Shown piece by piece: positions 13,689 through 44,204 of a stretch of DNA of 64,000 bases. The stretch comes from Sarcocystis neurona. Lineage: Eukaryota > Apicomplexa > Conoidasida > Eucoccidiorida > Sarcocystidae. Position 1 is the first letter of the stretch. Every line of letters begins with the position of its first letter. A program made the position numbers and the translations under genes. The notes beneath the pieces are model-generated. The model saw only the letters and a program-made list of their open reading frames with translations. It was not told the origin of the DNA and did not search any database. The stretch spans positions 1,227,017-1,291,016 of the forward strand of contig KL647311.1 of the NCBI GenBank assembly GCA_000727475.1, in the 5' to 3' direction.

Positions 13689-16600
13689 TTAGCTCCTCAC
13701 CACCACCTGCTGTGATGCGGTTGCTGCAGCTGCTTCCTTTTGCTGCTGCGCTGCGACAAGCAGCTGAATCGCCTTCGCTGCCGCGTAGCTGCAACAGTGG
13801 CACATCACATGCAATTCAAAGAGTGAATATTCACCATCAAAATTCAGATCTTTCGGTGCGTGTAGAGAGAGAGAGGAAAAGAAAGACATAGAGGGCCATT
13901 GTTTTCCATATATATATACATATATGTATATACGTGTATAGGTAATACGAGTGTATGCGTCCGTGTGGAGACACCTTCAAATACATAGATATATACATAT
14001 ATATACATGTATACGTGTAAGTATATATAGATATATGTGTATCTGTAAATAGCCATACATCTATAGAAGTTAATTTTTACGTATCCACATTCACACACAG
14101 ACAGAGATACATGTGGAGGTGGACGTGTAGCTAGTTGCTATGATGGTGGAGCGGGAAAATCACGTGATCTACTTACATCACGCTCCACGTAGAAACAGTG
14201 ACTGCTACTGATGCGGGCCATCATAGAAATGAAGAGAACTTCAATATGTGAAGATGCATTCTGCGCATCCGCATTACCACTTAGCGCGTATGATACCCTG
14301 ACACATATATATAAGGAGTCAGGCAGAGAAGAGGGAGACGGGAGACAGTGAAAGAAATAGAAGGATATATGTAGAGAGCACGAGACACATGGGGAGATAT
14401 TCTCGAAGACAGAGAGACAATAGAGAGGTACAGCCATGTGTTTATGTGTGTATATGTGTGTACATACATACGTGTGTGTGTAGACGCGCATAGGTAGGGG
14501 CATGTTGGTGTTGGTTTCTGTTGGCGAATATAAAAAGAAGAGGGCAGCCGCATATTCTGCCGTGCGCATAGATGCACTGGATGAGTTGTTGAAGCTGTCT
14601 GGGTGATCTTGCAGAGGGACCTCTCAGGTGTACGTACACCCCAGACTGGAAGTACTCCCGTCTCGGAATGCATGCACTTGCATGCCAGAGAGGAAAGTAT
14701 CGCTGCCCGCTCGAGACTGCCGCATTGCGGTTCTCCAGGTGTACAGACACCATCTTTAGGAGAAACGAAGCGCACGCCGGACGCAGTCTCAGCAGGCTTG
14801 CGATGTACATACACCGGAGCTGCACTTGGCTGCTCGAAGAAGGCTGCAGATGCCACGCGAAGGGGAAGGACGTCGTCTTCGGTGTACGTACACCCGACGG
14901 ACGTGGAGACAAATCCTCGTTCTTCACCAGAGCGCGTTTTCGTGCAGCGGCACTTTTGAGACAACAAGAAGGAGAATAGGTCATAAATTCCACACTTCGA
15001 ATATAGGGAAGAAACGCTTGGCAGCTCGGGACAAGTTATCGCCAGTTCTCCCAACCACCAACGTCGACAGATAAAGCGAAAAGCCGGATGGGACACAAAT
15101 GACGAGAAGAGAAGGGGAAGAGAAGAAAACCCCGAAAATTTTCGTCGGGGAGAAAATGGAGTGTCTCTACAGAGGAAGAACAGACTCATGGAGAATACGA
15201 GAAACTCTGCTTTATACAAGTGCGCCCATATATGTATACACATGTATGCATATATATGTACACATATATGTATATATATGTATTTGTTTAGTCTGATTTC
15301 TTCTAGACACGCGTGTCTACTGCACACACGTAAAAGCCCCGGCAAATGCATACACTTGCATATATGGAGGACCAATTATTTTCTACTCAAACACAGAGAT
15401 CCACTTCGCTAGGCAACGAGACTACAGATGGATCGAGTGCGACGACGCGTAGAAGAGGACGTGGTCGGTCGCGGGGACCCACACATATATATGGAAATGC
15501 AAGAACGAAGAAAAAGAGAAATGTGTGAGACTGTGAAGCTGGAGAAGAACAAGGAGGTGCGTAGTCTTCTCCGGACTCCTCTCGCAGGCCTGGCGTACGT
15601 ACACCGGCCCGTACTTTCTTCGGCAGAGAGTCACACGTCTATATATGTGCAGCTTATAGAGGAGACATATACAACAGCGCACTCTCACGCCCATCTGCAG
15701 AGAAAGGGAAAAAGAGAAGGGAAGAGAAAATTGTGTCTACATGTGTATTTGTTTGTATTTCGACACGAAGAAAACAGCAAGAAAACTATACAGACATATG
15801 ACCGACCATATATGTATATACGTGCAAGCGCCATCTATGGCACACTCCCACACAAATCTACAAAGAAAAAGACAGAGAGAAGGAAAGGAAGAGAGAAAAA
15901 AAAGTTCATCTATATGTATTTCTTTGCTTGTCGAAGAATACACACTTGTGTACGTATGTGGACTTGCGGGCAGTAATCACCTGTGACTGGGCGCGTATAT
16001 ACACGTGTGCATGCGTGTACGGATAGGACTGCTGCACTTCGACTCACGTGCGTCTCTACAGACATACGCGTTTGAAGATACGACGTCTGCGTCAGTCGCT
16101 TGTCGAGCTGTCTCCCCGTCTCCCTCTCTGTCTCTGTCTCACTCTGTCTTTACACACGCTTGGGTCTGCAGACGGGTGTTTCTTCTCCTGTCCGTGAAAA
16201 GGTGTGAAGAGGAAGGCGGATAAGAAGAAAAGGAAAGGAAGAAAGGGAAAACAGGGGACGAACCGAGTTTGGGGTGTGGGGTCGGCAAGCGCCGTCTCCA
16301 CGAAAGGCCGCAGATGCTGCTCCCACGCCTCCTTTGAGAAATAGGAATGCAGCAGCTGCAGCAGCAGCACACACATACCCACACAGCAGCTAAGCACTTG
16401 GCAGCAGCAGCAGCAGCCTAGAGAGAGAGCGAGGAGCGCAGCAGGTGGCAGCAGCACCCGCAGCGCAGCAAGCAGCAGCAGCAGCAGCGGGAGCACAGCA
16501 GGCGGGAGCAGTAGCAGCAGCGCAGCAGGCGGCAGCCGCAGCAGCAGCGCAGCAGGCAACAGCAGCCGCAGCAGGCAACAGCAGCCGCAGCAGCACCGCA

Positions 16601-18373
16601 GGCGGCAGCAGCAGCAGGAGGCAGCAGCAGCAGCAGGGCAGCAGGGCGGAGCAGTAGCAGGAGTAGGGGTCCTTTTTCTCGACGCATGCAACGGGGCGGA
16701 AATACCGCCGCATTTCCTCTTTGGTGGTGGCGTCAACGGAGTCGTTTTCGCGTTTAATAGGACGAAGCGTGGGACCGGGTAGAAAGGAGGAGACGCTTTG
16801 CTGCGGTGTCTGCTACGGCTAGAGACACTAGGAATATCACAGACACAAACAGGTCTACGTAAAGTCGGCAAAGATAATGAAGAGACGCATGTTTTCCTGC
16901 GCCCACGCATACGGAAGCGTTTTCCGCGTGGAGCAGCGCAAGGGCGGCGTCGGGAAGGCAGCAGCAGCAACAGCAGCAAAGAAGAGACGAAAACAGAGAG
17001 TCTTTTCTCGAAGGGGAAAGGAAGAGTGAAGCAGGGAGCCGACGGAGCGGGAAAATTTCGGGACACGGAAGAAGCCGAGCGTTCACTTCCACGAGGCAAA
17101 TAGGTCCACACGCCGACAGCGAAAAGGCGTGTCTTCATGCGGGGCTGTAAATTCTGCAGAGAACCGGAGAAGCGAAGAAGCAGAAGAACAGAAAGGAAGG
17201 GAGAGGCAGGAAGAGAAAGAGAGGGGAAGACAGAAACACAGAGGAACACACAGAGTGAAAACAACTGGTCGGTCCGCATGTATGGAAGTATACATACAGA
17301 AGACAGGGAGAGACCTCCTTCCAGACATGCAAATATGTGTAGTTCCCATCTGCAACATATACGTGTGAGTTTCTTTGGGGGAGAAAGACGCAACAGCAAA
17401 GGGGAGGTGGTTTACGCAGCATGCAGACGCTTGTCGGCTTTTGCTGCTGTTCTTCTTTCACTTGTAGACCCTTTTCATCCATACACCAAATTTCCCTTTT
17501 CTCGTCCTTTTCGCCTCGTCGGTTCACATTTGGGCGGACGCGCACATGGGGCTACTCGTTTGCAAAAACCAGGCGCGCGCCACATGGCAGGTGTACGTAC
17601 ACCACGTCGTCGTCAGACACTCGCAGTCGTCTTCCAGCCGGTGTATGCACAAGGAGAGACACAGACATACGAAGAAGAAAAGGACGAAGGAGAAGAAGAG
17701 AAAAAACATGCAGAGACGGGGACGGAAAGGCAGGTGAGGAAGATATTTGGACCGTACAAGTAGAGAGTGACGTGCCTGCTGAGAGGGGGGGAGAGACACG
17801 GAGACAGCGAAGGACAGAAAGAGCGAACAACACTTTCACCGGAAAACTACTCTTCCACACGACTGCATGCGCGCGGAGTGCGCTGCTGGCCTCTCGAAAA
17901 GAGAAGGAAAAGGAAGAAGAGGGGGAAGTCGCAGGAAAAGAGTGGACGTGTTGCGTGGACGCGCGGTGCGCGGCAGCTCATAGGAGGAGGACAAGCAGAG
18001 GGGAGAGGACGGACGGGAGAAGGGGAGAAGATAAAAGAGAAGAAGAAGATGGAAGACGTAATCGAAAAGGAACAACGGGAAGGGGAGGGCAAGAAGGGAA
18101 GGCAAGGAGGGAAGGAGAAGAAGAGAAACTTACAACAGCGTAGCGACAAATTTCCCCGCGCACCGAGCACCTCTTGCTGCGCTGCAGGTCGCGGAACAGC
18201 GGCAGCAGCTGCTGCTGCAGCAGCACCTCACGCTGCCGCATGACACCTGCTGCTGTCCCGACTCCCTTTGCTGCTGCTGCTTCTCCTGCTGCCGCTGCCG
18301 CTGCGCCGCCCTCCTTGCGGCTGTTGCTGCTGCTCGCTGCCTCCGCGCGGCTGAGACTCTGCTGGGGCAGCTC
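13689..18373 (-). CDS. PR65-like HEAT exons, C-terminal part of a phosphatase scaffold
   Basis: Exon 18373-18134 (acceptor GTCACAG, donor GTAAGT, phases 0/0) has an Ala-rich start and ends LLPLFRDLQRSKRCSVRGEI. It joins in phase to 16355-16264 (acceptor CTGCTGCTGCAG, weak donor GTTCGT), which encodes YFSKEAWEQHLRPFVETALA. Together they align with PP2A scaffold repeats 11-12, including the KFGKEWA helix. Further down, a segment about 14250-14169 (SSHIEVLFISMMARISSSHC, donor GTAAGT) and a terminal segment starting near 13788 or 13861 (YAAAKAIQLLVAAQQQKEAA, TAA at 13691-13689) look like the remaining exons. Their phases were not fully reconciled, so at least one small exon is missing. Whether this is the C-terminal half of the gene starting at 44204 is an inference. 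Confidence 0.55.
14627..14894. repeat. cluster of GGTGTACGTACACC palindromes
   Basis: Exact 14-mers lie at 14627-14640 and 14881-14894, with one- or two-mismatch copies at 14739-14752 (GGTGTACAGACACC) and 14802-14815 (GATGTACATACACC). The sequence between copies is GC-balanced and open on the minus strand. Confidence 0.85.
15592..15605. repeat. palindrome copy GGCGTACGTACACC
   Basis: One mismatch to the GGTGTACGTACACC consensus, followed by GGCC. Confidence 0.75.
16380..16660. repeat. CAG-rich intron block
   Basis: CAG/GCA runs on the plus strand lie just upstream (minus-strand sense) of the PR65-like exon at 16355. The minus-strand (CTG)nCAG here forms the exon's acceptor. Confidence 0.75.
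17590..17603. repeat. palindrome copy GGTGTACGTACACC
   Basis: Exact 14-mer, preceded by CA as in the copy at 14627. Confidence 0.85.
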
Positions 18374-18507
18374 CTGTGACGCACGCGCAAGTCAAAAAAA
18401 GGGCGTTTTTCCTTCTCTTTTTCTGTCTTTCGCCTTTCCTCTTGCTGGCGTGTGCACCACCCACTTAAAAGCAGCACCGGGCCACAGCGATGGTACCGAG
18501 AGTCGAA

Positions 18508-19030
18508 TACGTAAAACAGAGAGACAGAAGGAGAGACAGGAGGAGGGAGACAGGAAGGGAGAGACAGAAGGAGAGACAGGAAGAGAGACAGGGAGAGAGA
18601 TAGACGGAGAGGCAGGAAGAAATGGAGACAGGAGGAAAGAGACAGCAAGAGAGAAAGGGAGACAGGAAGAGGGACAGAATGGGAGACAGAATGGGAGACA
18701 GGAGAAGAGAGACAGGAGGAGGGGGACGGAAAGAGAGAGACGGAAGGGGAGAGACAGGAGGAGGGAGACAGGAGGAGGGAGACAGGAAGAGGGACAGAAT
18801 GGGAGGCAGAGTGGGGGGCAGAATGGGAGATAGGAGGAGGGGAAGGGGAAGAAAGGGAGACGGGAAGGGAGAGGAAGAAAGGGAGACAGAATGGGAGACA
18901 GGAAAAGAGAGACAGAAGGAGGGAGACAGAGAGAACTGCATAGAGCGGAGAGGAAATTGATGTGAAGAGAGGAGGCGAAACAGAGGGAAGAAGAGTGATG
19001 GACAAGTATAGAGACAGAGAATTGCAAGAA
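18508..19030. repeat. polypurine tract GGAGACAGGA(AG)
   Basis: About 520 bases with almost no pyrimidine other than the C of GACAG, built on GGGAGACAGGAGGAG-type units. It also shows up as a Ser/Leu/Pro/Cys-rich frame on the other strand, which I read as an artefact. Confidence 0.9.
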
Positions 19031-19039
19031 GAAGACGGG

Positions 19040-19500
19040 GACAGCTACAAATGTAGATATATATACAGAGAGAGAGGTCGATAGATACAAATATGTGCAC
19101 GCATATAAATATATGTCTGTGTGTGTGCATATACATCAATATAGACCTCAGTACATATATGTATGGTACATATAAATATATATGTATATGGACAAAGAGA
19201 GAGAAGAGTTTGTATGCAGGCGAATTTTTACATGTCTTGGAGAAGGTGTGTAGAAAGCATGCGTACGAGTAGATATATTCACGTGTAGAAATAGAGAAAG
19301 ATACTCAGTAAAACAAAGAGGACTACGTACATATACACATATATATAGTCTACTGCAGCGCGTGTATATATGTATATATAGGGAGAGAGAAAGGAAGAAA
19401 CAACGGACGAGAACAGTAGGCAAATGCATATAAACAGTTCCTCATAAACATATTGATGTAATATAGAGACTCACCTATATATGTTGATATGTACACATGC
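19040..19500. repeat. TATA/TGTA microsatellites
   Basis: Short TATATG and ACATAT runs with unique spacers. No exon recognised. Confidence 0.7.
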
Positions 19501-19619
19501 GTATGTACAGGGACGCTTGAATTCTTTCTACACATACATACATAAAAGCACCTGCATGCCTTCCCGAGTAGACCGTATAAAAACCGGTGATGCATGCGGC
19601 TTGACGGCTAAGCTGCAGG

Positions 19620-20270
19620 AGACGTGGACCGAGCAGCAGCAATAAGAACGGGAGCAGCATCAGCACCAGAAGCGGGAGCCGCCGCAGCAGGAATGGGAGA
19701 AGCAGCAGCGAAAAGGCCTGCTGCGCGCGAGCGTCTTTTTGAACAGGAAAGAGGAGCAGCAGAGAACCGGGGGCAGCTTCAGCGCAGAGCGGCAGCAACA
19801 GACCAGCAGACGCGCAGCAGCAGAAGCAGCAGCAACAGACCCAGAGGCTGCAGCAGCAGAAACAGCAACAGGCGAAACGGACGCAGCAGCAGCAGCCACA
19901 CGCGCAGCAGGTGCAGCAGCAGCAGCGGCAGGAGCAGCAGCAGAAAAGGCAGCAACAGCAGCAAGGACGCGAGAAAGCAGCAAAGGCAGCAGCAGCGGCG
20001 GGTGTCGTGATAATCAAAACAGCAGCGGGGAAGTCGAAGCCGCAATGCACAGCAGAGAAACATGGGGTCGCCTTGTCGCCTGCAGCTGCAGCATGTAACA
20101 CACGCAGAACCACGCTGCTGCTGCTTGACGTTTTGCAGCAGCAGCAGCATGGTCAGCGAGAAACAGCCGCTTCCACACGTATGCGCCAGCAGCAGGAGGA
20201 AGAGGTCGGCGAAAAGCTCCTGCTTCGGTCCGTGTGTGGAGAGAAATTTATGTCTACACATTGACATGTG
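19620..20270. repeat. CAG-rich block with doubtful coding potential
   Basis: CAG/GCA runs on the plus strand. One plus frame ends in a protein-like stretch (TTLLLLDVLQQQQHGQRETA, then EEEVGEKLLLRSVCGEKF) before TGA at 20262; the minus strand gives Leu/Cys-rich readings. Strand undecided. Confidence 0.4.
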
Positions 20271-20399
20271 GGGTGGCCAAGCGTCCACACATACGGCAGT
20301 TCCTTTCCCTTCTTGTTCCTATAGATTTCTGCTTCCCAGGAGAATATACGAACAGAAGAAAAGTAGACGGGAGCCCATCGACACAAAGAAGTGTGTGTC

Positions 20400-21060
20400 A
20401 TACATGTAGATATATATATAAATCCCGAAGGTGGAGGATAATGCGAGACACACATATATTCTATCCCTGCGCAGTGTTCTGCCTGTCTATATATATATAT
20501 ACGTATGTGTGGATCTGTGTGTGCCTACTAATACACGAGGATTTCGGGAAGATATATCTATCTATCTCTTATCTATCTACCTACATTTATCTCCATGTGA
20601 TGTCTACTTGCCTATCTTCCCATATCTCTCTATCTACCCATCTACTTGTCTATCGTTTTGCACACATATGTATCTATAGCTATCTATAACTCTCTCTATA
20701 TGTCTATATATCTATCTATGTATATCTGCCTATCTATATCTCTCTATGTCTATCTATATACACATGTGTATCTAACTATCTACACATATGTACCTAAACC
20801 TATCTTACTATACCCATATATATATATATATAGATATAGATAGATAGATATAGGTGGATAGATATATATCTATCTACCTGTATCTATCTAAGTATATTTA
20901 TCTATCTACCTATATACATATATATGCATTCACACACATATATACGCGTATGCGTGAGCCAGAATGTCACACATATATATATATAGCTTGTGCTTGCATG
21001 CATGTGTGGATACATGTGCGTATGTACACATATACATATATATATATATATACAGGTGGA
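20400..21060. repeat. TATC/TATA microsatellites
   Basis: (TATC)n and (TATA)n runs, densest at 20545-20930. Confidence 0.85.
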
Positions 21061-21194
21061 TACGGAGAAACAGGAAGATAGAGGAAGAGGGACTACTTCG
21101 TGTTTTTCCACGCGTGTGTGGTATAAGAAGAAAATGGGTGTCTCGGCAATTTTTTTTGCATGCCGAAGAAGTAGGCGGGAAGGGAAGAAGTACC

Positions 21195-21650
21195 TTGCAA
21201 GAAGCGACGATACGCTCGAGAGCTGCTCCTCCCTCCTGTCGCACTGCCCACACTTTCCACAGCAGCAGCCCCACAGCAGCACCAACAAATCAACCAGCAG
21301 CAGCGGCAGCACAGAGAGAACAGCAGCGCCAGCAGCGGCACCAAAGACACAGGAGCAGCACCAGCAGCAAGAAGAAGGGGCAGCGGCAGCAGCACCAAGA
21401 AGACGGCGCGGCAGCAGCAGCGGCAGCACAGCGAGAGCGGTAGCACCAGCAGCCCAGCAGCGGTTGCCCGCCGGGGAAATCGTGATAGGCCAGCAGCAGC
21501 AGCAGGAGAGAAGTGAGAGCATCAGCCGAGAAGAAGCAGCAGCAGCAGCGCCGTCGAAGAGAAGAGTGGACTCCGTAGGAGCACAGCAGCAAATACAGGG
21601 CAACCTCCACAAATGGCTGGTACATTTTACTACCACGGCACGTTCATGTG
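21195..21650 (-). other. CAG block with probable HEAT-like exon(s), frame unresolved
   Basis: Minus-strand readings include MYQPFVEVALYLLLCSYG near 21620, ADALTSLLLLLLAYHDFPGG near 21500, and KVWAVRQEGGAALERIVASC ending at a donor AAG|GTACTT near 21200. They fall in different frames. The plus strand gives a Gln/Ala/Ser-rich alternative ending at a GCAG|GTAGGA donor. By position an exon of the scaffold gene is expected hereabouts. Confidence 0.35.
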
Positions 21651-21699
21651 CAGCAGGTAGGAGGCTTATACATCTCTGAATCTTCAACTTTCTCTAAGG

Positions 21700-22900
21700 C
21701 AGACTCAAGTATGCGTCTACATATATATATATGTATGCGTCTACGGAGGAGAGGTGGAATATGCATGCAGGTGCGTAACCTTCTTCTCCTCTCCCAACCT
21801 TCAAAGGTAGAATATATACGTAGATAGACATCTCACCTAATAAAGCACATCTATACACGCATGCAAATATATTTTACTTCTTCACTTATTCTCTCAAACA
21901 CATGCAACATAACTTTACCCTGCGACCTACTCAACCATATAAATATATGTGTACATTTGTGTCTTCTCAGTAATGAATTTCTACGCCAGTACATACGTAT
22001 GTATGTACATACACATATATATATATATATATGTATCTACAGTAACAAGTATCTACAAGCATATAAGTCTGTATACATATACATATGACCTATGCATACA
22101 TTACATACTCATATATAGATGTGTTTGTGTATACAAGAGGATGTATCTCCCTGCATATATATATATATGAATATATGTGGAGACAGTATTATACACCTCT
22201 CCATACACGCATACACACACACACACACAAGACATGCATGGGCAAATATATACACATATATCCATATATATCATATATATATGTGGAGACACAGTAGCAC
22301 GCACATCTATGCATATGTACAGATATAGACAGAACCGGGATGAAGTGAATTTCCGTCGTTTGTTTGCAGTCGACGAACTTGCTATACTTCCAAATTTATT
22401 CACCTATATGCATGTGCCACCAGGCTCTCACACACACAAACACACAGGTATATTTGGGCTCCTTTTCTTCTCTTGTAAAGGATCATTCATATGCATATAT
22501 ATACATATATATTTGCCGCTTCATATCCACACAAACAGGCATATACCCACACATATATACGTACACACGTACCCACCTACATATACACACATATACACGT
22601 ATACATACATATGCATGCACACACACACACACACATATATATGCACACATGTACCTACACACACACACATATATATACAGAGGTATATACACACAGATAC
22701 ACATACATATATACGCAGATATATACACGCACATATACGCACATATATATACACACGTACAGACATATATGTGCACATGTATCCACACATGTATTCACAT
22801 ATATATACACACACATCTATACATATACATACATACGTATATACATACATACATACACACACATACATACATACGTTCATACATAGATATACACACATAT
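21700..22900. repeat. CATA/TATA microsatellites
   Basis: ACACAC, ACATAT and TATATG runs dominate 21990-22310 and 22480-22900. Confidence 0.85.
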
Positions 22901-23894: not shown

Positions 23895-24687
23895 TCACTG
23901 CTGGTGAGGAAGGTGGGGACCATAGGAGAACCAGGAGATAAATTTTTGCAGCTGCATGCGTTTCCTTTCAAGAAGAAGACGCGTCGCTATTTTCCGAGTA
24001 GATAATGAATACCCTTACGCATGCATGCAGAGACAAATAAAGAGATGTGTACATACATGGCCTCGGTGGCAAAGTTACTGTCTTGGCAAAGAATCGAGCT
24101 GCAGACAGATGGAAGGAAACTACTGCGGCGTCGCTGCCGGCGCGTTTCGACTTCTCTGCTGCAGTAAAAAGAGGCAGGTGTCTACTTTTGTGGGGAAGAA
24201 GACGTGCCCGTATGTACGGGTCCGACGCATGTCTAGTAGTTCCCCACCGCTACAAGAAATATTGCTGGTCGGCAGAGGGAGCCATACAGATACACATACA
24301 CATACATATATACAGGTGCATACAAGGTATATATGGAGACAGAGACAGAGACACACGGATGACCAGCTATACCCAAATATACATATGTGCGTGCATGCGC
24401 CTGTGCATACAACATTACTGTGTGTGTATATATGCATGCGTGTACATATATGTATGTGTAAACATGAAGGTGAAGCGGTTTTGGAGAAAGAGAAGGACAG
24501 ACAGAGGGACAAGTTGCTTCTTGACGACGTATACAGAGAGACAAATCTCCACCCTTTGTTCCTCACAAACCCGTGTCGATTTGCTGCTGCTGCTGCTGGA
24601 GGACTTGCTGTTGAGTTACTCACCATCGTCCTGCAGCAGGCGGAGCAGCAGGACCCACAGGCGCATTACGACGCCTTCTTCAATCTC
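23895..24687 (-). CDS. HEAT-like exons with a possible stop at 23895
   Basis: Exon 24687-24624 (acceptor ACGCAG, donor GTGAGT) encodes EIEEGVVMRLWVLLLRLLQD and ends in phase 1. Exon 24158-24057 (acceptor TTTTTACTGCAG, donor GTATGT) enters in phase 1 and encodes a helical stretch containing VVSFHLSAARFFAKTV. A candidate third exon, 23986-23895 after a 70-base intron, encodes TRLLLERKRMQLQKFISWF and runs to TGA. If that last exon is real, a gene ends here and the HEAT exons upstream and downstream belong to different genes. If not, the chain continues to the PR65-like exons at 18.4 kb. The first two exons are well supported by splice sites; the terminal one is tentative. Confidence 0.5.
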
Positions 24688-25159: not shown

Positions 25160-25930
25160 GGAGAGAAGGAGGAGACACGGAGACAGACAAAAGAGGGGAA
25201 GGACGCCAGGAGGGAAAGGAGGGAGAAAGTTCGGGAAGACAACCCCCGTCGTATAGAGAGAGAGAGCGAAGAGGAATACACAGCGAGCCAGAGAAAAGGA
25301 CCGAAGGACACGGAGACGGGGAGACGGGGAGACGGAGAGACAGAGAGAAGAGGGAGACGAGGAGAAGAAGAGACAGAAGGGATTCGGAGACGGAGCGAGG
25401 AGGAGGAGGAGAGCAACAGAGGGGACGGAAGGAAGGGAGACACACCGAGAAAGAGACGGGAAGGCAGCAACAGCGCGAAAGCGAAGAGAGACGGAGACGG
25501 AAGGAGACGGGGAGAAGGGAGGGGAGACACGGAGACAGAAGGAGACACCGGGAGACGGAGACACAGCAAGAGAGAGAGAGAAGGAGGGAAGAAGACAGAA
25601 GGGAAGGCAGACGGGGAGAAAAAAAGGGAGACAGAAGGGAAGGCAAAAGGGAGACACGGAGGGAGAGAGAAGGAGAGAGACGAAGTGAGACAGGGGAAGA
25701 AGAGGGAGACACGGAGGGAGACGGAGAGGAGGAAAAGAGAGAGACGAGGGGAGACAGGGGGGAAGGAGAGACCTGGAGGGAGACGGGGAGAAGGAGAGAC
25801 ATGGAGGGAGACAGAAGGGGAGGCAAAAGGGAGACACGATGGGAGACAGGCGAAGAAAAGGTAGACACGGAGGGAGACAGGGGAAGAGGAGGAGACACGG
25901 AGGGAGACGGAGAGAAGAAGAAGAGGGGAG
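25160..25930. repeat. polypurine tract GGAGACGGAGA
   Basis: About 770 bases of GGAGAC/GGGAGA/AGGAAG units, even longer than the tract at 18.5 kb. It lies in the intron region upstream of the exon at 24687. Confidence 0.9.
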
Positions 25931-27428: not shown

Positions 27429-29971
27429 ATGTCCGTAGATGTCTGCGGACGCCCGGTGATTTGTGACTTCCTCCTTTTCAAGCAGCAGAAGTCCACTTTT
27501 GGGTGATTCTTCGAAGAACATCTGCCTCAAAAAAGAAACGAACTTCTCCCCAAAAAATGTACCTGCTGCAGAAGAATCAACGGGATCTGCTGCAGAATTG
27601 TCGCCCGTGTCCTCCAGCAGCTGCCGGGCGAATGCACCAGCGTTTCTAGCCGGGCCATCAGTACCTGCCCCAACACACGCATGCAGCAGCAGAAGCAGCT
27701 GCGCGACAGCGGTAGCAACAGCAGCAGCTACGGCAGCTCCACCACCAGCGTGGTGGGCAGCGGCGACAGCAACAGCGGCAGCTACGCAGCATCACCACGG
27801 GGGACAGCAGCAGCGGGGGCAGCAGCAGTAGCGACGGCAGAAAGACTAGCAGCTAGGACGGCGCCAGCAGCAACGAGGGACGCAACAGCAGTTACGGCGG
27901 CAGCGGTAGCAGCTACACCAGCCGCAGAACCAACAGCGGGAGCAGCAAGAACTACAGCAGGGACAGCAGGAATTACAGCGTGAGCAGCAGGAACTATACA
28001 GAAGGAGCAGCAACTACCACAGCAGCAGCAGCACCTACGGCAACAGCTACACCTGCAGCAGCAACTACAGCAGGAGCAGCTACCGCAGCAGCAGGAGCAG
28101 CGGTGGCTAGAGGAATAACGGCAAGATTAGCAGCAGATACAGCAGCGAGGGCAGGACCCCCTTAGGAAGAACAACCACAGGGGACTCTGCAGCAGCAAGA
28201 GAAGCAGCAGCGACAGCAGCAAGAGAAGCAGCAAGAAGGGCAACGACCGCGAGAGAAGCAAGAACAGCAGCAAGAGCCGCAACAGCAGCAGGAATACTCT
28301 GGTGTCTACTGGTCCAATAACCTTCGCAGCCGCACATACGTCAGCAACAAAAGAAGCAGCAGCAGCGTCTCTAGAAGAGCGGCAGCAACAGCAGGAGCGG
28401 AACGAAGGAGGAGGAGCAGCAGCAAAAACTGCTGAGGGGAAGAGGCAGTCGCTGCAGCAGGAGAAAAGAACAAGCAGCAGCAGGATAGTGAGGGAAGAGC
28501 AGCAGCAGCAACAGCAGCAGTGGACGAGTTCAAAGGAAGAACATACCGCATAGAAGCAAGGCGGCGGACAAGAGAGAAAGGCTTCGAGCTCCTTCAAGAA
28601 ACAGACAGCAACGTGCCAGTCATTAACGCTGGAAACACAAAACATTCGCAGCCAGGCAAAGGAAGTAGACACGCATGTATAAAACAGTAAATGTGTCTGC
28701 ATACACATATGTACATAGATACATATATACACGTTTGTGTCAACATATACACTGCATGCATATAGATTTGAATATATATTCACATCCACTTGATAGCAAT
28801 ATATACATGCATGTGCATATATGTATACATACTTGTGTACCTACGTATCAACCATATATGAATATATACAAGAGTATTCACAACCAACTGGCAGCAAGGT
28901 ATATGTATACATACAAGTGTACATATATATATATATATATATATGTACATGTTCACATACGTGTACACAAACTTGTGTCAGTCGGTCGCAGCAGATATAT
29001 ATATGTATGTCTCTATGTGTTTATATCGATGTAGACACATATATACATATATACATATATATATACATATATACATATATATATATACATATATGTGTAC
29101 GTATGTATGAAGAGAGGATACTTCATATGTATGGACAGGCACTACCCCCCAAAAATAGTGAGAGAACCACATTATCCAGGTAACATATACACAGACATAT
29201 ACGCTTCAACCGACTACCTATCCACGAAATATATACACATATATACTTCACACGCATATATGTATATCTGTACATAAATGGGTGTACATATATATATACA
29301 CATATGTGTATAGTTGATATGTTCCCGGTAACACATACACAGATATGTATGCATCAACCAATACATATGCGGGTATATATATATGTATACGTTTCACACA
29401 TACATGTATATCTGTCCAGAGAATGGGAGTATATATATATATATAAACATGTGACAGCGTCTACACATGAGAGGGTATATATATATATATATATTGCTAA
29501 GTCACCTATATACCAGAGTATTTGCATATATATTTGCCTTTGTCTACACATGGAGATTCTCCGTATACATGCATACATTACTAGATATATATGTGTGGGC
29601 TAAGGGGAGGACGGGCATGTATATACGCGCATGCAGAAGTGTGTATATGTGGAGAGATTGTGTCCGCTTTTTTGTATATGTGCATGCAGGGACATACGAA
29701 GGTTCTACGAAGACATGTGTTATATCTGTTGGCAATCAATGAATATCTACAGTTATATAAATGTGTGTGTCCCTTTCTCGAAGAAGTGTCCTTTCTTGAG
29801 GACGTATGCACGAGGATGCGTGGAGGAGACACCAGAAACAGACGACCGCGAAGAGAGGATAAAAAAGGACTTACTTAAGAAGAGTAAAAGCGAAGATCGT
29901 CAGCTGCCACCGCGTCTCATTCGAACTCGAAGGCAGCCGCATCAGGCAACACAGCGTCTCCATGAACTCCG
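27429..29971 (-). CDS. middle exons, probably of the same HEAT-repeat gene
   Basis: Three minus-strand exons chain in phase: 29971-29875 (acceptor TGTGCAG, donor GTAAGT, phases 1 to 2), 28628-28547 (acceptor TTTCCAG, donor GTATGT, 2 to 0) and 28431-28340 (acceptor CCCTCAG, donor GTATGT, 0 to 2). A fourth, about 27645-27429, contains GEKFVSFLRQMFFEESPKS and may start at 27645 (phase 2), though its acceptor is not settled. The peptides are helical and amphipathic: METLCCLMRLPSSSNETRW, QLTIFAFTLL, VNDWHVAVCFLKELEAFL, then a Leu-rich helix. ETRWQLTIFAF sits where PR65 repeat 10 has its KWRVR helix, so I infer a continuation of the scaffold gene. A second HEAT-type gene is possible. The introns hold microsatellites. 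Confidence 0.5.
28680..29640. repeat. TATA/CATA microsatellites in a 1.25-kb intron
   Basis: TATATATACATA and TGTATA runs, lying between the exons 29971-29875 and 28628-28547. Confidence 0.8.
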
Positions 29972-31650: not shown

Positions 31651-31684
<34 letters not shown>

Positions 31685-33050: not shown

Positions 33051-34440
33051 CAGCGTTTTAGGAAGGGAGGAACTTTTTCTGCTGCGTGCAAGTGGCGTTG
33101 AAGTATCGGCGCAGAAAGTGACTGCTGTTTCACAGAACGTGGGGGGAATATCTGCACAGAAAGAGACGTGACCGGAGACGGAGACACGGAGACGGGGGAG
33201 ATGAGACAGGCGAAGAGGCGAGACAGACGAAGAGATGAGAAGAAGAGAAGTGTGCATTATTGAGAGGAAGAAATGGAGGAGAAGAGAGGGGACGGAGAGG
33301 CGAGAATATATGGGCGAAAGGGAAGAAAGGGACGTACTAAAAATTGGCGCCGGGGCTCCTGCTGCTGCTGCTGCTCCGATGCTGCTGCACAGCGCGTCGC
33401 CTTCTTCGAGGAACGCACTGCAGACACCCGCGCAGCTCCCTGCCGCCTGAAGAGGCAGCAGCAGCAGCAGCCCGGCAGCGGCGGTGGGGCAGCAACTGCG
33501 GCCTTGCAGAGCAGCCGCAGCAGCAGCAGCAGGCCAGGAAGCAGCAGGAACGGCAGCCGCGTGAGAGCGGAAGCCAAAGAAGAAGAAGCAGCAGCACAGC
33601 AGCAGGCGAGGAAGAAGAAGCAGCAGCAGCGGCAAAGGGAGCCGTAGGTGCAGCAGCGGCAGCACGAAGGAGAACAAAACGGCAGCGGCAACTCTCAGCA
33701 GCAGCACAAGTTGACACGTCGCGTATACGTGTACAAGAAGACCGGGTGGAGGACTCACGCGTGCTAAGGCTGCAACTGCTCTTAAAGTCTGTGCTCGCCG
33801 AAGCGCTGCTGCTGCTGTTCCTCCTGCTGCTGCAGTTCCTCCTGCTGCTTCTCTTCCTGCCGCTGCTGCTGTCCTTGCTGCTGCTGAAGTGTGTGCTCGC
33901 CGAAGTGCTGCTGCTGCTGTTCCCGCTGTCGCTTCTCTTTCTGCCGCTGCCGCTGTCCTTGCTGTTGCTGCTAGTCTTTCTCCTGTTATCCTTGCTATCA
34001 TTGCGTCCGCCGCTCGTCTTCCTTCTGCTGCTATTGCCACTGCTGCACTTCATTCTGCTGCTGCTGCCGCCGTTGCTGCGGCTGTTGCTGTTCCCCATGT
34101 TGAACTCACTGCCGCCGCTGCTGGTGCGTTGGCTGTTGCTGCTGCTGATGCTGTTGTTGCTGCGTGGATACTCACTTGCGTCAGCTGCCGAATTTTGCGA
34201 AGGGCCGCCGACTTCACATTCATCTGCACAACACCGCAGCAACAGCAGCAGCAGCGACTGTTTCTGCTCCGAGCAAAACGCAGCAGCAACAGCAGGAGCA
34301 GCAGGAGCAGCAGCAGCAACAGCAGGAGCGACAGGTTTTCAGGAGCAGGAGCAGCAACGGCAGCAGCGACAGTTTTCCAACTGCAGAAGCCGCAGCGTCC
34401 GGGCAGCAATGCTTCAACAGCAGCAGCATGAGTTGCAGAC
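33050..34440 (-). other. CAG/CTG block with unresolved HEAT-like exons
   Basis: The minus strand reads [20 protein letters not shown] and LKRCF after AAACAG near 33130, a position where PR65 repeat 9 would be expected, but no donor follows before a stop. A second stretch about 33422-33340 ends at a TTA|GTACGT donor and is open in all three frames. CTG runs fill 33800-34150. Confidence 0.3.
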
Positions 34441-35714
34441 GTAGGCCAGCACCGCGGGAGTCGCAGGGGGGCGCCGTTCAAGCGCGAGCAGGAAGCGGCC
34501 CCGGCTGACCCACTACCGCCGCCTCCTCAGCCTACGGCGGAGGTGGGGCCCCCCACATATATACGCATGCATGTGAATCCTCTAGCGCACAGAAGCAAGG
34601 CGCTGGCGGTAGAAGATTATATAGCCGGGTGTCTACGCATGCGCACCAGGCCAACAACAGGGGGTCCCCGGGTCCTTTCTTGGAAAGAGGCAGGGAAGGG
34701 GAAACAGACTGCCACAGCAAGAAGTACGAATCAACAGAAAATCCACACCTATTTCTTTGTAATGTCTGCGTCCGACCTTCTGTTTGAATGTGTTGAAGTC
34801 TAGACGCGCATGCATCCACAGACAAACAGGAAAACCCATATATATACGCAGTTGTATATGCGTGTATCTGTGTACATGCATGCGCATGTATATACGTATA
34901 TGTGTACACAGATATATGTATATACATATATGTACATAGGTGTATACATGTATAGATGTGCATATATGTATACATGTGTATATATGTACATGTGTGTATA
35001 CGTGTATATATGGCTATATATGTGCATATGAGTATATAGGGTATATGCGTATACCGATGTAAATAGGTGTAGATAGGTGTATACATATGTACATATATGT
35101 AAGTATGTATATACGTGTGTATATGTGTGAATACGTATATATGTATGCATGTGTGTGTACGTGTCTATGTGTTTAGATACATAGAGGAAGAGTGCAGTTA
35201 CCTCCCGGTCTTTGAGAAGCTGCGTGAGCAGCGATGCGAGACACGTGCCTTCGCCGAGGACGAGGCCCGGGACGCTGCTGCTGCTGTCGGTCGGTCGCTG
35301 CGACGCTGCTGCTGCTACGCTTCTTCCGCCGCCTCCTGCTGCTGCTGCTGTCCCGGGGCCGCCGCCGGTAAAAACAGCAGCGAGGCGCTCCAACCGCTCG
35401 CACACTGCCGCGCGCACTCGCCAAGAAACATCCGCTGCAGAACGCACGCAGCAGCAGCACTGGCGGCGGCAACGTCCACGGGCGGCAGCAGCAGCAGCAA
35501 GAGCGGCAGCAGGGCGCAACAGGTGCAGCTGCAGCGACTGCAGCAGCAGCAACACGGGTGCAGCAGCCAGCAGCAACACCAGCGAGAAACATCAGCAGCA
35601 ACAGCAGCAAAGAGCGAGAGGCACCAGCAGCAACAGCAGCCCCCAGCAGCAACAGAGCGAGAGGCATCAGCAGCAACAGCAGTAAGAGGCAGCCGCAGCA
35701 ACAGCAGCAAGAGG

Positions 35715-35746
<32 letters not shown>

Positions 35747-38700
35747 GCAAGGGGTGGCAGCAACAGCTACGAAAGTGTTTTTCAACGTACTACACAGACG
35801 TGGGAGGAATTCTTTTCCGAGTTCTCGAAAAAGTTTGGGATCGTGGTCTGCCATTGCCGCTAGGCCCTGCACGCCCTGCATGCGCAGCGTTTCCTGCAGC
35901 AGCAGGAGCAGCAGCCAGGAAAGCCACAGCAGGAGCAGGGGCAGCACGACAAACCCTTCAGACCACGAAGTGGCGCCACAGCAGCAGCAGCACTGGCGAC
36001 GACTTCAGCAGCAGCTGCAGCAACCGCCCAAAAGGCACCAACAACCGCGCAACACAAACACTTCCCTACCCACCGCGCTGAATTCACAACAGCAGCAGCA
36101 GCAGTAGCGGCAGTCCCCCGGCTGCGTCAGCAACCCTTGCCGCAGAACAGCCACATCAGTGTCACCAGGTGATGCAGCAGCAGCAGGAGCAGCAGCAGCA
36201 AGAGAGCAAGAGCAACAGCATATCAACACCGCCGGAGCAGCTGTGTGTCATAGTCTGCTCCGTCGAGAAGCACGTCAAGTATGCATGCGCATCTTCGTGC
36301 ACCACCGCGTCACGCGCTCTTCTATTTCTTGCCAGTGTGTGCGATATCTTTGCCCGCATCCGCCAGAGAGAGAAGTTGAATTAAAAGAGTGGAGATGTAG
36401 CGTTGTCAACTGTCCTTGAAGAAGTGACAAATAGGCACCCGTGAATATCCATAAAATAGAAATATGCCAAGAAGTATACGTCTCTTCAGGTGCTTGCACA
36501 CGAATGCTGGCTTTAGAAGATGGCCAGGCACAGAATCCCCCTGCGCATGTAGACACATACAACGCGCATGAAACACACGTAACCGGGTCTATCGGCTGTC
36601 TCCCCTACACAAGTGTCTCCCCCTATACGGATGTCTCCCCCTATACGGCCGTCTCCCCCTATACGGATGTCTCCCCCTACACCGCTGTCTCCGCCCACAC
36701 GGCTGTCTTCGTCTACAGGGGTGCCTATAAATATCTGTGTGGCTACATGAGTAGGCGGATGTGGACGTGTGTGTAGGTGAAGACAAAGGGAGCCGGGGCT
36801 GCTTGGCTGCCGCTCGACTGCAGCAGGTGCTTACCGAGGGGGAACTGACGTAGCTGGAGAGAAGCTGCGCGAGAATCTGCAGCAGCTGCTGTCGTTCTTT
36901 CTCTCCTGCGGGTCGACCACTTCTTTCTCTTGCTGCTGCTGCTGTTGTCGCTGCTGCGTTGGCATTGCTGCTGCTCTTGTTCAGGCAGACAGCAGAGGTC
37001 AGTCCTTCCTCTCGCTTCCTGCTGCTGCTGCTCCCGCCTGGTGTCTGCTCACCACGCGCGGAGAACGAGTGGCCCTCTGTTGCTGCTGCAGAAGGGGAAG
37101 AAGCAGCAAGCGAATGGCGCAGAGCCGCCCCACACATTTCAACGAAAAGCGGGAGCCGGGTGCCTGCCTGCTGCTGAACGTAGATGAGAGCAGTGTCCTT
37201 GCACAGCGCTGCATACGCATGCACCAGCAGCTCGAGCTGCTTCTCCCCGCCAGTCGCCCGCAGTTGCTCCTCCTCCTCCTCCTGTCCTTCCTCCTCCTGC
37301 TGCTGCTGCTCCTGCTGCTGCTGCGGCGGCTTTTCCTGCGGCTGCGGTTCCTGTGGACGGTACTGCTTGGCTTCGCAGAGGCGCTGCTGCAGGTGGAAGG
37401 CGGCAATGGGGAGCAGGACAGCTGCAGCTGCCTGGCTGCGAAGCCCGTCGTCTTGTAGCAGCAGCAGCACGCGGGGAACGAGCTGCTGCTGCAGCACTGC
37501 CAAAGAGACGTACCTGCGTGAGGAGAAGAGCCTGTACAGAGCGGCTTGAGCCACCTCACGCGTCTCTCTGTCCTGCTGCAGCAGCAGATGCAGCAGAAGT
37601 TTGAAAAATAGCACCGCGTCACTTTCTTCCTCGCCGCCGCTGCTGTCTCTGCCGCTGCTGCTGTCTTCTCCTCCTACGCTTCCTCCTCCGGCGACCCGAT
37701 TCTTCTCCTCGCTCGTGCTTCTCCTGCTGTCTCCCCCGCTGCTCCTGCTGCTGCTGCCGGTCTCACTGCAGCTCCCGTTCTTGCCGCCGCTGCTGTGGTG
37801 TCTCGAGCCAGTCTCGAGCTCGCTCTCCCGTCCGGTCGTCTCCTGCTGCTGTTGCTGCTGCTCCTCCTTCTGCCCGCCCTGCTGCTGCTGTGCTGCTGGT
37901 GCTGCAGCCCTCTCCTCCCGCTGCAGCAGGGCCAGCAACTCCCTTCCGACGGCCTCAAGCACAAGGCGATCATTCTCCTGCTCCAAGTGCGCTGCCCTCG
38001 GTTACACAAGCAGAAAACAAATACGCTTGCATTCTTCAACACAAGCCGAAAAACTAATATGCATGCGTACACCTATATACGTCGCTCCACGAACACATAC
38101 ACAACTGTCGAAAATATGGGCGCACGCGAACGCACGCAAACACATCCTTCACTATAGATACACGTAGCTGCATATGCATACATGTACATTTATGGGTAAT
38201 ACATATATACATATATATATGAATGCATTTGTTTCACAAATATATATATCCTTTGTGTACCTGGCTATAACACACGGCGAGGAGTACACATACACATAAG
38301 TACACACAAGTACATATATGTCATATATATATATATATATATGTATAAATGAATACATATGTTTCACATTCATATAGAGACATATATATACGTATATTTA
38401 TGTAATTTATATTTGGCTTTAGCACACCGCGAGAAACAAAACACACGAGTACATATATGAGTTACACATATATATATGAATGGATACAACTATTCACACA
38501 TATATACGTATATATTTATATGTTCTATGTGTACCTGGGTGTAATACATGACGAGATATATATATATATGCATGAGTATACGTATGGCCGGAGAAATGGA
38601 TACATCTATACATACATATGGAGTACTCTCCATGTGTATGTATGACCATATATGTACGACGTACGTACACATGCATATATATATGGATAGATGCATACGA

Positions 38701-41700
38701 AGGACAAAGAGATACGGGCATATAACGAGGGGTTTGTGTGTGTACAAAAATGTGCGTCTATACATCTACGTATGTTGCAGTAAATATACGTGTGTCTCTC
38801 CACACATGCCTGCGCCTATCGATAAGACACATATATGTAGGAGTCGCCTATGTGTACGGATAGTATGTCTATATATATGGAGACGCCGGTAAACACCTAG
38901 GTATTTCATCGCGGTTTTTTGCCCTCATCCTATATATATATGTGTAGGCACAAGAGACCGAGCAACACATCAGTAAGTGTATGAATGCTGAGAACGTACA
39001 TATATATATGCAGAGGTACTGAGGAGTATATATGTGATGAGGTGATCACTGACGAAATGAATATATATATACGTGGAAGTTGGAGTGTGACGGCTGAGAA
39101 GTTGGGGGTCTCTGGGTAGCCGGTCCAGCAGGCCCGAGGCTGCGTCATGCACCTTTTATGCATGTACACACTTTCTAGCTATTTATTTAGAGAAGAAAAG
39201 TCTTCCGCAGATGTATATGTGTAGGGCCAGACGTGCGGGTCCAGCAATACAAACGAAAAGAAGACACACATATACACATGAATCCATATACAGCTATAGT
39301 ACTGTGTGTATATATATAGAATCTACTACTACACACATTTACATATCTATATACATAGAGAGGGCGATGGAGCGAATATATATATATAAGGGCATGGTGT
39401 CGCTATACAAATGCATGCATACATATATAATGCCCCACACAAAGAAAGACAGCGAGAGGGACCGAAGAAATGTGCACGTGTACAAGTGTATGGCTCCGCT
39501 ACGTATATATATATATATATATATTGTACTAAGTACATATATATGCAAGTGTAGCAAATAAATGTATATGTGTATATTTGTACGGATGTGGCTTCAAGCA
39601 TAGGCATGCGCAGATACGCGGCTCCTCGAATACTCCGCCAGTCGACCGGCAAGGTGAATACAGACAGACATATATACACACATATATATGTGTATAAAGG
39701 CAGACACACTCGCGCATGCGCACGGGAGCAAAAGGCGGAATATAAAGATAAACAAATATATGTGAAGGGGGGGAAAAGATAGAAACGTGTACTTTGCGAT
39801 GATCACGGCATGAAGCCGTTCAACCCACATATATGCGTGCAGCACATCTGCGTAGTGTTGCGTACACTCGTGAAAATGGCCTGTCACAAATACGTTTATT
39901 CTTCACACGCACGAGCCTAATATATACATATATGTACACACATACACATATATATGTATATATTTGTGTTTATATACGACTGTACACATGTATGTATATA
40001 TGCGAAGCACGCGCGCTAGTGTATTCCTACATACGCACATATATATATGTTAGTATAGGAGTGCAGACATATATATATGAATGCACGTGCGCCACTATAT
40101 ATAGACACATATACATATATGTTTGTGTATGATTGTAGAGACATACTACGCTACTGTGTGTAGACACGTACATACGTGTATATATATATGTATATTAGTA
40201 TGAAACTGCAGACATATATATAAATGTACGTGCGCCACTGTGTGTAGACACGCGCGTATATATAGTATATAATCATAAAGAAAGATGTATATAGGGAAAT
40301 GTACGTGCACTCGATTGTGTAGACAAGTACATGCGTATATATATGTGTGTATTAGAAGATAGATGTAGAGGGATATGTATACACCTAAGTACGCGTCCGC
40401 TAGTGTATATATGCTCATATCTACGCACACGTTATGTATGTGGAGGGTTGTAGAGATACACATATATATATGAATGCACGTGCACTACTATATGTAGACA
40501 CATATATACGTATGTATGTACGTTAGTATATGACTGTAGACAAATATGTACATATGTGAATGCAAATGCCCTACCATATGCATACACATCCATATATATA
40601 TGTACGTATGCATTAGTATATGAATGTAGATAGATATAAATATATATATGTGTCTTATATGTAAAACTACACAAATGAACTCGAACTGGGGTGTGGAGAC
40701 GGTTGAATAGGAGAAACTGCAGAAGAAAAGAAGACTGCGTCAAAGACTGCGTGTGAACCCTTCTTACCTGCGTCGGCCTAGACGCATGCATATACGTCGG
40801 GAGAAGTATAAGTCGCACGCATATACTTCTGAGTATATATATTTCTACACCTGTCCACTTTAGCAGCACCACGTCATAAAAAGTTTTCGACGCCCGAGTC
40901 CACATATTACATGCAGATAGACACACACATACACCGCCGTGTCCACAAGGAAGTAAACCCCTGAATACACATATATATATGTATATGTAACGCGTGCGAT
41001 GCATGCGAACAAGTGTATATCTGAGGAGCAGCAATTCGTGGATCATCCCTTTCCGCGTGTAGATGCTGCTCATGCACATGTGTGGCCTTCCCGTAGGCGT
41101 CGTCAACGCAAAGAGACGTCGATATAGATATCGACCAGGAGAAGGGAGACGAAAAGGAAGGACACTTCCTAGCGACAACGTCCTTACTCAGAAGAAATAG
41201 CAGCAGCTCACGCTGGTTGCAGGAGAGGGCCGTCGCCAGGTTGCCAACGCTGCATACAGCAACGAGTCTCTCCTGCGTCAACGGCAGGAGCCCAGGGGAA
41301 GCGACAGCAGCAGCAGGTGGGGACGGGAGTAGGTGATGAGAAGAAAGTGCCAAGACGCAGCAGCAGAATCCACAGCAGTTCCTCGCTTATATTGTGGGAG
41401 AAACAGGTGTACTCGTGTATATATGCATACGGTTGTAGAAAGCTTAAAAAGTCCGCATGCATGTGTGTATTTGTCTATAATCCTATACATATGTGTGTGT
41501 GTGTACCAGTACACATATTCTAGCATACAGCCATACACAGACATTCTATGGAAACAGAAGTACACACACATATATATGTATATGCTTGTGTTCGTTAAAA
41601 TACACATATTTTACATATGTGTCCACATGTGTTTACATCTGTACACACATATATAAATAGAAATATACATGTATCTATTTACACATGTCTATAGAGATAT

Positions 41701-44204
41701 AGGTAGATGGACATGTGTACATATGTGAGCATGCAGCCGTACATTTATTTGATGAAAACCAAGATATACACATATATATATATGTTTGTAAAAATATACG
41801 AACTACATATATATATGGGTACTTGTGTATAACCACATACATACCCATATACATATATATATATATATATATACACGCACTACCCATATATATATATATA
41901 TATATATATGTAAGCGTACAGCTGCAGATAGACTTTAGGGGGACAAAGGTGTATGCATATGTTTGTATATATACGTATGTGGGCACTGGTTTGTAGTGGT
42001 ATACCTCTGTATACGTACGCATACAAATATATACATATATGTACGTAAATATACATATATATACATATACATATATTTATATTACGGTACAACGGTACAC
42101 ACATGCTGTGGAGAGAGAAGTACACGTAGGCATGTGTATATTTAGAAATATACGGTTCTCCTATTTATGTATGTACGGATACTTCTGTATTACCATCAAA
42201 TGCGTGTGTCTATATATATATATATACAATGATATATATACTATGTGTATATATATACATGTATGTATATATGTACATACATATACACACATGCATATAT
42301 ATATATATATGTAGACAGGTGTATTCAGGTGTATTAGTTTGTCAAAATCTCGACGAGTCACAGCCGTAGAGACCCTCACTTTTTCTCTTCGTATAGAGGG
42401 AACAGGAAGAGGTACATGAACAGCAGCAGCACGTACAAGCGCAGACACACGCATAAAACCAGACAGGTGGTCGTAGCAGACCCTCTTCTTCCGTGCTGCT
42501 GCTTAAACATGAAAACTACATACAAGTGCGCACACAGCACCAGCAGCAGCAGAAGCAGCAGTGGCAGCTGCAGTAGCAGCAGTAGCAGCAGTGGCACCAG
42601 CAGTAGCAGCAGTGGCACCAGCAGTAGAAGCAACGGCAGCAGTAGTAGCAGCAACGGCACCAGCAGTAGCAGCAGTGGCACCAGCAGTAGGAGCAACGGC
42701 AGCAGCAGTAGCAGGCAACGGCAGCAGCAGTTGTAGGCAACGGCAGCAGCAGTAGGAGCAATGGCAGCAGCAGNNNNNNNNNNNNNNNNNNNNNNNNNNN
42801 NNNNNNNNNNNNNNNNNNNNNNNNNNNNNNNNNNNNNNNNNNNNNNNNNNNNNNNNNNNNNNNNNNNNNNNNNNNNNNNNNNNNNNNNNNNNNNNNNNNN
42901 NNNNNNNNNNNNNNNNNNNNNNNNNNNNNNNNNNNNNNNNNNNNNNNNNNNNNNNNNNNNNNNNNNNNNNNNNNNNNNNNNNNNNNNNNNNNNNNNNNNN
43001 NNNNNNNNNNNNNNNNNNNNNNNNNNNNNNNNNNNNNNNNNNNNNNNNNNNNNNNNNNNNNNNNNNNNNNNNNNNNNNNNNNNNNNNNNNNNNNNNNNNN
43101 NNNNNNNNNNNNNNNNNNNNNNNNNNNNNNNNNNNNNNNNNNNNNNNNNNNNNNNNNNNNNNNNNNNNNNNNNNNNNNNNNNNNNNNNNNNNNNNNNNNN
43201 NNNNNNNNNNNNNNNNNNNNNNNNNNNNNNNNNNNNNNNNNNNNNNNNNNNNNNNNNNNNNNNNNNNNNNNNNNNNNNNNNNNNNNNNNNNNNNNNNNNN
43301 NNNNNNNNNNNNNNNNNNNNNNNNNNNNNNNNNNNNNNNNNNNNNNNNNNNNNNNNNNNNNNNNNNNNNNNNNNNNNNNNNNNNNNNNNNNNNNNNNNNN
43401 NNNNNNNNNNNNNNNNNNNNNNNNNNNNNNNNNNNNNNNNNNNTAGCAGCGATGGCAGCGCCAGTAGCAGCGATGGTAGCAGCAGCTGCAGCGCACCTCT
43501 TGCGAGTCGCTGTAGAATTTATCAAAGACAACTCGCGCTGTCTCCGCGTCTGCCTCATTTCTCAGGTTCTCCGTCGCAGCCTCAAGATTACCCTCCGCCT
43601 TACTGTTGTCGCTGTAGGTGCTGCTGTTCCTGCTGCGGTTCCACAACTTTGCTGCGGCAGCAGCAGCAGCCTGGATCTCCGCAGACGCATGTGGTAGCTC
43701 TTCCCACGGCTGCCTGTCGATAAAAACTGCTGCTGCAGATCCGCGCAGTCGTGAGGCAGCTGCAAAAGCTGGTCTTGTTCCTACTTCGCTTTGTCCGAGT
43801 TCGTCACGGGGCGTTCGACCTGCTATCTCTCCTGCGGTCCCTGCTGCTGCGCCTGCTGAGGAGGCTGCTATGGAGGCCCGTCCTGCTGCCGCTGCTGCTG
43901 CTGCATCTGAGTAATAATCTGTTGCGCCTCCTCCTCCTGCAGCTGCTGCTGCTGTTCCTGTCTGTGCCGTGGCGGGAAGTCTTCCTCCTGCTCGTGAACA
44001 TGTTGCTGTGCTCTCTTCTGCAACTGCTGCTGCTGTTCCTCGAGCTGGGACTGCTGCTGCTGCTGTTGCTGCACTTGGCCACACGGCAGCAGTTTCTGGA
44101 AGGGGGTTGCAAGTATGACGGGAGAACAAGAGGAACGCGGTGCTGCCATACCATCCCGAGTCGCCTTCCACGCATGCAGATGCTGCGGCGGCTGCTGCAG
44201 CCAT
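34176..44204 (-). CDS. PP2A/PP4 regulatory scaffold (PR65-like HEAT-repeat protein), N-terminal exons
   Basis: Exons 44204-43497, 41272-41188, 37991-36835, 35893-35791, 35434-35202 and 34223-34176 join in phase (0,1,0,1,0,0) at GT-AG sites such as TCG|GTAAGC, CAA|GTGAGT and GAG|GTAACT. The joined ~778 residues follow the order of HEAT repeats in the PP2A scaffold subunit. NLATALSCNQRELLLFLL (residues ~247-264) matches repeat 1, TREVAQAALYRL and YAALCKDTALIYV match repeats 3-4, LRMQGVQGLAAMA repeat 5, SWRVRAAVCERLERLA repeat 6 and LLKDREMNVKSAALRKIRQL repeat 7. Low-complexity Gln/Ser/Ala inserts break the repeats at about 296-387, 472-515, 560-628 and 706-740. Such subunits bridge catalytic and regulatory phosphatase subunits. 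The first intron holds the assembly gap. The ATG at 44204 is the first in frame, but the Ala-rich first exon is the weakest part. PPP4R1-type scaffold is the main alternative. Confidence 0.7.
34830..35190. repeat. TGTATA microsatellites within an intron
   Basis: ATATATGTACATAT runs between the exons 35434-35202 and 34223-34176. Confidence 0.8.
36596..36715. repeat. 18-bp minisatellite TGTCTCCCCCTATACGGA
   Basis: Six to seven copies with C/T and A/C variation, in the intron after the exon ending at 36835. Confidence 0.9.
38150..39600. repeat. TATA/CATA microsatellites
   Basis: TATATATGAATG and ACATATAT runs, densest at 38170-38560 and 39300-39560. No exon recognised in this intron region. 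Confidence 0.75.
39985..40650. repeat. ~100-bp satellite with GTACGTGCGCCACTNTGTGTAG
   Basis: The core TGCACGTGCGCCACTATATGTA then GACACATA recurs about seven times, each followed by TATATATG and a TTAGTATANGACTGTAGA segment. Confidence 0.85.
41400..42330. repeat. TATA/TGTG microsatellites
   Basis: CATATATATG runs with spacers. The sequence lies in the first intron of the scaffold gene model. Confidence 0.8.
42540..42773. repeat. CAG-type minisatellite adjoining the assembly gap
   Basis: AGCAGTAGCAGCAGTGGCAC-type units of 18-24 bp run into the Ns; the same unit reappears at 43444-43490. The gap is therefore probably an unassembled stretch of this array. Confidence 0.85.
42774..43443. other. 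assembly gap of 670 Ns
   Basis: The bases are N. The true length is unknown. Frames drawn across it have no meaning. Confidence 1.

Follow-up and report, generated by a model that had tools for sequence, protein, structure and literature searches.

The 64,000-nucleotide stretch of DNA analyzed here (the window; C24:1227017-1291016 of a coccidian-like genome) carries on its minus strand a 16-exon gene model that encodes a HEAT-repeat protein resembling PR65, the scaffold or A subunit of protein phosphatase 2A (PP2A). The model begins with an ATG at 44204 and continues to a stop codon ending at 11893, a span of 32,312 bp, and comprises 3,360 coding bases, including the stop, for a product of 1,119 residues with 0 internal stops; its 15 introns, all GT-AG, total 28,952 bases (about 29 kb), the longest being 3,371 bp. 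The reading frame is complete, splice signals are present, and the product is colinear with its relatives from the N to the C terminus. We regard the locus as a single, intact-looking gene whose product, a divergent HEAT scaffold of the PR65 type, is the orthologue of a coccidian HEAT protein present in Besnoitia and Toxoplasma and is most likely PP2A-A2, and we assign this reading a probability of about 0.88.

The model rests on two coccidian relatives. A homologue search with less repetitive pieces returned at least two proteins at E ≤ 10 among 7,994 scored candidates, both named HEAT repeat-containing protein: one from Besnoitia besnoiti (P0121; 956 aa, E = 1.7e-22) and one from Toxoplasma gondii RUB (P0122; 772 aa, E = 6.7e-21). 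With the joined exons as the query, where Leu/Gln-rich words probably swamped the search, none of 7,997 scored candidates reached E ≤ 0.01. Ahead of FVETEND, P0122 could not be aligned with P0121; since its start (residues 1 to 86) seems to be misannotated and to lie in non-coding sequence, P0122 was used from residue 87 onward (686 aa), and its true N terminus probably resembles that of P0121. Between the two relatives, identity is 59.0% over 675 residues; the window protein shares 39.9% with P0121 over 887 residues and 41.0% with P0122 over 670, and its colinearity with P0121 extends along the full length, including the N-terminal extension. In a profile-based spliced alignment, which allowed three intron phases and GT-AG sites only, a profile built from P0121 and P0122 scored 608 bits on the minus strand, compared with 45 to 60 in 11 controls (plus strand, 49; reversed profile, 56 and 60; eight column-shuffled profiles, 45 to 57).

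The initial annotation of this DNA had described minus-strand exons that chain by splice phase in the order of PR65, and this observation is confirmed: by eye, too, pieces in human PR65 order with fitting splice phases can be picked out of the minus-strand frames from 41.3 to 16.2 kb. It had also placed the 5' end exactly, had given the correct length for the N-terminal part (exons 1 to 6, 2,334 bp, encode 778 residues), and had considered one gene, as the single model now has it. The end that it gave, 13689, is the stop met on reading past the donor of exon 15, and the true last exon was missed.

Three elements of the model were set by hand: (i) the start codon, (ii) the acceptor of exon 14, and (iii) the extension to the stop codon. 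The weak sites are two acceptors, those of exons 3 and 12, and one donor, that of exon 14; the VWAVRQEG of exon 12 is nevertheless identical in both relatives. At the two ends, exon 1 resembles the N terminus of P0121 (SFLLFSR; FNKFFSEDHEE), and exon 16 matches the C termini of both relatives (WLSKMKEKVLADQDADVAAV, compared with WLQKMKAKLIRDSDPDVAEV of P0121). Additional exon 14 pieces in the path of the programme, 16809-16458 (13.8 match bits) and 16417-16356, were removed because T. gondii lacks that stretch. Within the joined peptide, the stretch that Pfam scores best as HEAT falls in exon 5.

Table 1. Exons of the gene model in window coordinates; HEAT numbers of exons 2 to 6 were assigned by eye against human PR65, and match bits refer to the coccidian profile
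Exon	Position	Strand	Content	Match bits	Remarks
1	43497..44204	-	N-terminal extension, 236 aa, before HEAT 1	93 (from 44162 on)	ATG 44204 hand-set
2	41188..41272	-	HEAT 1	29	
3	36835..37991	-	HEAT 2-6, Gln/Ser/Gly/Glu inserts	195	Weak acceptor
4	35791..35893	-	HEAT 6/7	50	
5	35202..35434	-	HEAT 7 (DVSWRVRAAVCERL)	79	
6	34176..34223	-	HEAT 7/8	24	
7	33338..33446	-	HEAT 8 region (FLEEGDAL)	39	Approximate number
8	29875..29971	-	HEAT 9 region	49	Approximate number
9	28547..28628	-	HEAT 10 region (NDWHVAVCFLKEL)	52	Approximate number
10	27563..27664	-	HEAT 11 (CWRTRATILQQIPL)	53	hhalign to PR65 starts here, at 406
11	24624..24687	-	HEAT 11/12	34	hhalign
12	21194..21252	-	HEAT 12 (VWAVRQEGGAALERIV)	35	Weak acceptor
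13	18134..18373	-	Insert, then HEAT 13	38	hhalign; 5' boundary less certain
14	16264..16355	-	HEAT 14	25	Start hand-set
15	13701..13788	-	HEAT 14 (YAAAKAIQLL)	35	
16	11893..11985	-	HEAT 15 and stop (11895-11893)	32	End hand-extended to stop

The likeness to PR65 was assessed at the levels of sequence, profile, and predicted fold. The exons joined by eye (394 aa) gave 21 matches in the PDB at E ≤ 10 (best E, 9.6e-10), 18 of which are the PP2A A subunit, including 8uwb_A, deposited under the name of the catalytic subunit; the remaining 3 are the A-kinase anchor proteins AKAP18/AKAP7. These matches alone are not independent evidence, because the joined exons were chosen with PR65 in mind. A profile comparison by hhalign with ten animal PR65 proteins aligned residues 881 to 1110 with PR65 406 to 576 (83% probability, E = 8.6e-6), which, by the repeat borders of PR65, corresponds to HEAT 11 to 15; the numbering by hhalign covers these repeats only, and HEAT 1 to 10 were numbered by eye. 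It follows that the exons at 18.4 to 16.3 kb, read in the initial annotation as HEAT 11 and 12, correspond to HEAT 13 and 14. Within HEAT 11, the WRVR of PR65, which contacts the catalytic subunit, is aligned with WRTR in the window protein. For the T. gondii relative P0122, fold matches of a predicted model (pLDDT, 62; the model of the relative and not of the window protein) were led by PR65. Spliced alignment of the window with an animal PR65 profile reached 72 bits, compared with 46, 50, and 50 in three controls; as a guide to the gene model, this profile proved too remote from the window sequence and linked spurious exons into its path.

The genome (123 Mb, 74 contigs) was found to hold a second locus of this kind, at about C9:1244339-1228570 (L022-L023; minus strand, about 15.8 kb), which scored 120 bits with the animal PR65 profile (controls, 21 to 30) and 43 bits with the coccidian profile (other-strand control, 35). 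In a plain six-frame search of the genome, human PR65 found one weak place, on C9 (E = 1.15), later recognized as this canonical PP2A-A locus. The joined exons gave 14 matches, 11 in the window and the others on C9 (E = 0.0033), C15 (E = 0.57), and C7 (E = 0.70), and P0121 gave 6, 5 in the window and a weak one on C3 (E = 0.41). The scores are thus reciprocal, the window gene being favored by the coccidian profile (608 bits, compared with 72 for animal PR65) and the C9 locus by the animal one. Of the two loci scored in this way, it is the C9 locus that best matches PR65, and the window gene is separate from this canonical PP2A-A gene.

Three other explanations of the locus were weighed. That it is the canonical PP2A-A of this organism, inflated by repeats, would agree with its colinearity with PR65 and with the PDB matches of the joined exons, but the better PR65 locus on C9 and the reciprocal scores make this highly improbable. 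The reading of the initial annotation as a PP2A scaffold is supported in so far as the protein is of the PR65 type, but this is the divergent second coccidian scaffold (PP2A-A2 type), and the compact, conserved PR65 is encoded on another contig. Canonical PR65 (human PPP2R1A; T. gondii TGME49_315670) shares with the window protein the order of the HEAT repeats and, as WRTR, the motif of HEAT 11, but is compact (589 aa in human). A regulatory subunit of PP4 of the PPP4R1 type is very unlikely: PPP4R1, of about 950 aa, is likewise built of HEAT repeats, which is a resemblance in length and architecture, but PR65 leads both the PDB sequence matches and the fold matches, in which PPP4R1 does not appear, no PPP4R1 sequence having been compared. 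Against it stands also that, if P0122 is TGME49_229350, its level drops upon depletion of the catalytic subunit PP2A-C2, as stated in PMC12425318. Two adjacent genes, or a decayed pseudogene, mimicking one gene would be in keeping with the 32-kb span and introns of up to 3,371 bp in a model known from the DNA sequence alone, but the exons are covered in order by a single Besnoitia protein, and none of those in the model contains a stop, so that we give this explanation very little credence indeed.

The preferred reading, a PP2A-A2-type scaffold, agrees with the full-length, colinear homology to the coccidian HEAT protein. In PMC11377541, PP2A-A2 of T. gondii (TGME49_229350 / TGGT1_229350) is described as a HEAT scaffold of about 95 kDa, predicted to be PR65-like and, by sequence, confined to Coccidia; together with PP2A-C2 and PR48, it is reported to work in daughter-cell separation (PMC12425318 and PMC11377541). 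It is on this confinement, and on the two relatives, that the coccidian origin of the window is based. P0122 is probably this protein, and the window gene is most likely the orthologue of TGME49_229350, the accession match being an inference. Like PP2A-A2, the window protein is a coccidian HEAT-repeat scaffold predicted to be PR65-like, but it is longer, with Ala/Ser/Gln/Gly/Glu inserts and about 29 kb of introns.

In PR65 structures, the catalytic subunit sits on HEAT 11 to 15 and the regulatory subunit on earlier repeats. By analogy with T. gondii, the solenoid of the window protein would hold a PP2A-type catalytic subunit on HEAT 11 to 15 and a regulatory subunit on the earlier repeats, and the scaffold would act in daughter-cell separation. 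A search for the end of the catalytic subunit, as a TPDYFL-stop pattern, found 0 places, which is uninformative if an intron splits the motif. As for the inserts, low-complexity codon repeats (Ala/Ser/Gln/Gly/Glu) may have grown in tolerant loops, leaving the helices intact, and the introns may have lengthened by the growth of simple repeats. One could go further and see in the second coccidian scaffold a fast-evolving platform, whose lineage-specific loop inserts and N-terminal extension of about 200 residues tune phosphatase targets in division; we consider this unlikely, and, if true, it would mean that the repeat growth is functional, beyond being merely tolerated.

The initial annotation proposed that this locus, if one gene, would be an extreme case of inflation of a compact protein. 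This was not supported, since (i) PR65 is the wrong standard of comparison, given that the protein from Besnoitia already has 956 aa, and (ii) the other conserved genes examined in the genome (canonical PP2A-A and ten chaperonin loci) are stretched too. The window protein is 1.17 times as long as P0121 and 1.9 times as long as human PR65. Residues present in neither relative number 221 of 1,119 (T. gondii being compared only past the N terminus), and Ala/Ser/Gln/Gly/Glu make up 67% of them, compared with 45% of the rest. The inserts lie partly at the same places as those of P0121, by eye, but the latter is free of long low-complexity runs. Among nine inserts of at least 4 residues in the part aligned with T. 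gondii, seven fall within 2 residues of a model loop (45% of positions) and five near low-confidence stretches of the model (32% of positions); this is a weak indication of a preference for loops, which alignment programmes also favor. Such Ala/Ser/Gln repeats within conserved genes are documented for Eimeria in PMC9131526, and its codon repeats, as given there and in PMC8785600, are like those of the genome studied here.

Ten chaperonin loci, our own grouping of 54 Cpn60/CCT matches (the C4 and C21 loci rest on two matches each), served as a yardstick. These genes are likewise split into short exons, with a few matches crossing a stop, as expected of unspliced sequence; they cover 4.5 to 16.1 kb for 430 to 487 profile positions, or 9.5 to 35.9 bp per position (mean, 24.6). 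The canonical PP2A-A on C9, which also has long Ala/Gly/Ser inserts, takes 27.8 bp per position. The window gene, at 33.8 bp per Besnoitia residue, lies inside the chaperonin range, and its HEAT part, at 51 bp per PR65 residue (575 PR65 residues assumed), lies above all ten loci. It therefore lies near the top of the stretching common to the conserved genes examined, or beyond it by the stricter PR65 yardstick: the repeat inflation is real, yet not far from the norm in this repeat-rich genome. Tandem arrays occupy 6,622 of the 28,282 readable intron bases (23%), compared with 3.7% of exons and, in the rest of the window beyond the gene, 2,302 of 31,688 bases (7.3%); the initial description of the introns as filled with satellites is thus partly right. 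Purine-rich arrays of the GGGAGACAGA type at 25312-25922 and 18521-18930 lie within introns and keep long frames open.

The initial interpretation is, overall, partly supported. T. gondii PP2A-A2 has already been studied, and the window gene opens no new mechanism; it adds a well-resolved and nearly complete model for a gene of the PP2A-A2 type, from a coccidian-like genome in which both PP2A scaffolds are present. It also provides an example of a solenoid protein absorbing repeat inserts, and automatic annotation could break up such genes.

Elsewhere in the window, scans for Rfam families and tRNAs found nothing, and Pfam, applied to ten long frames, gave one match (E = 0.47). On the minus strand, 2506-6807 is free of stops for 1,433 aa and contains simple repeats, with no Pfam match at E ≤ 1. 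A frame at 53439-54167, also on the minus strand, matches transaldolase (PF00923; E = 7.8e-19, 68.5 bits, profile positions 144 to 214), the sole Pfam match at E ≤ 0.01 among ten frames tried there, and is part of a neighboring gene.
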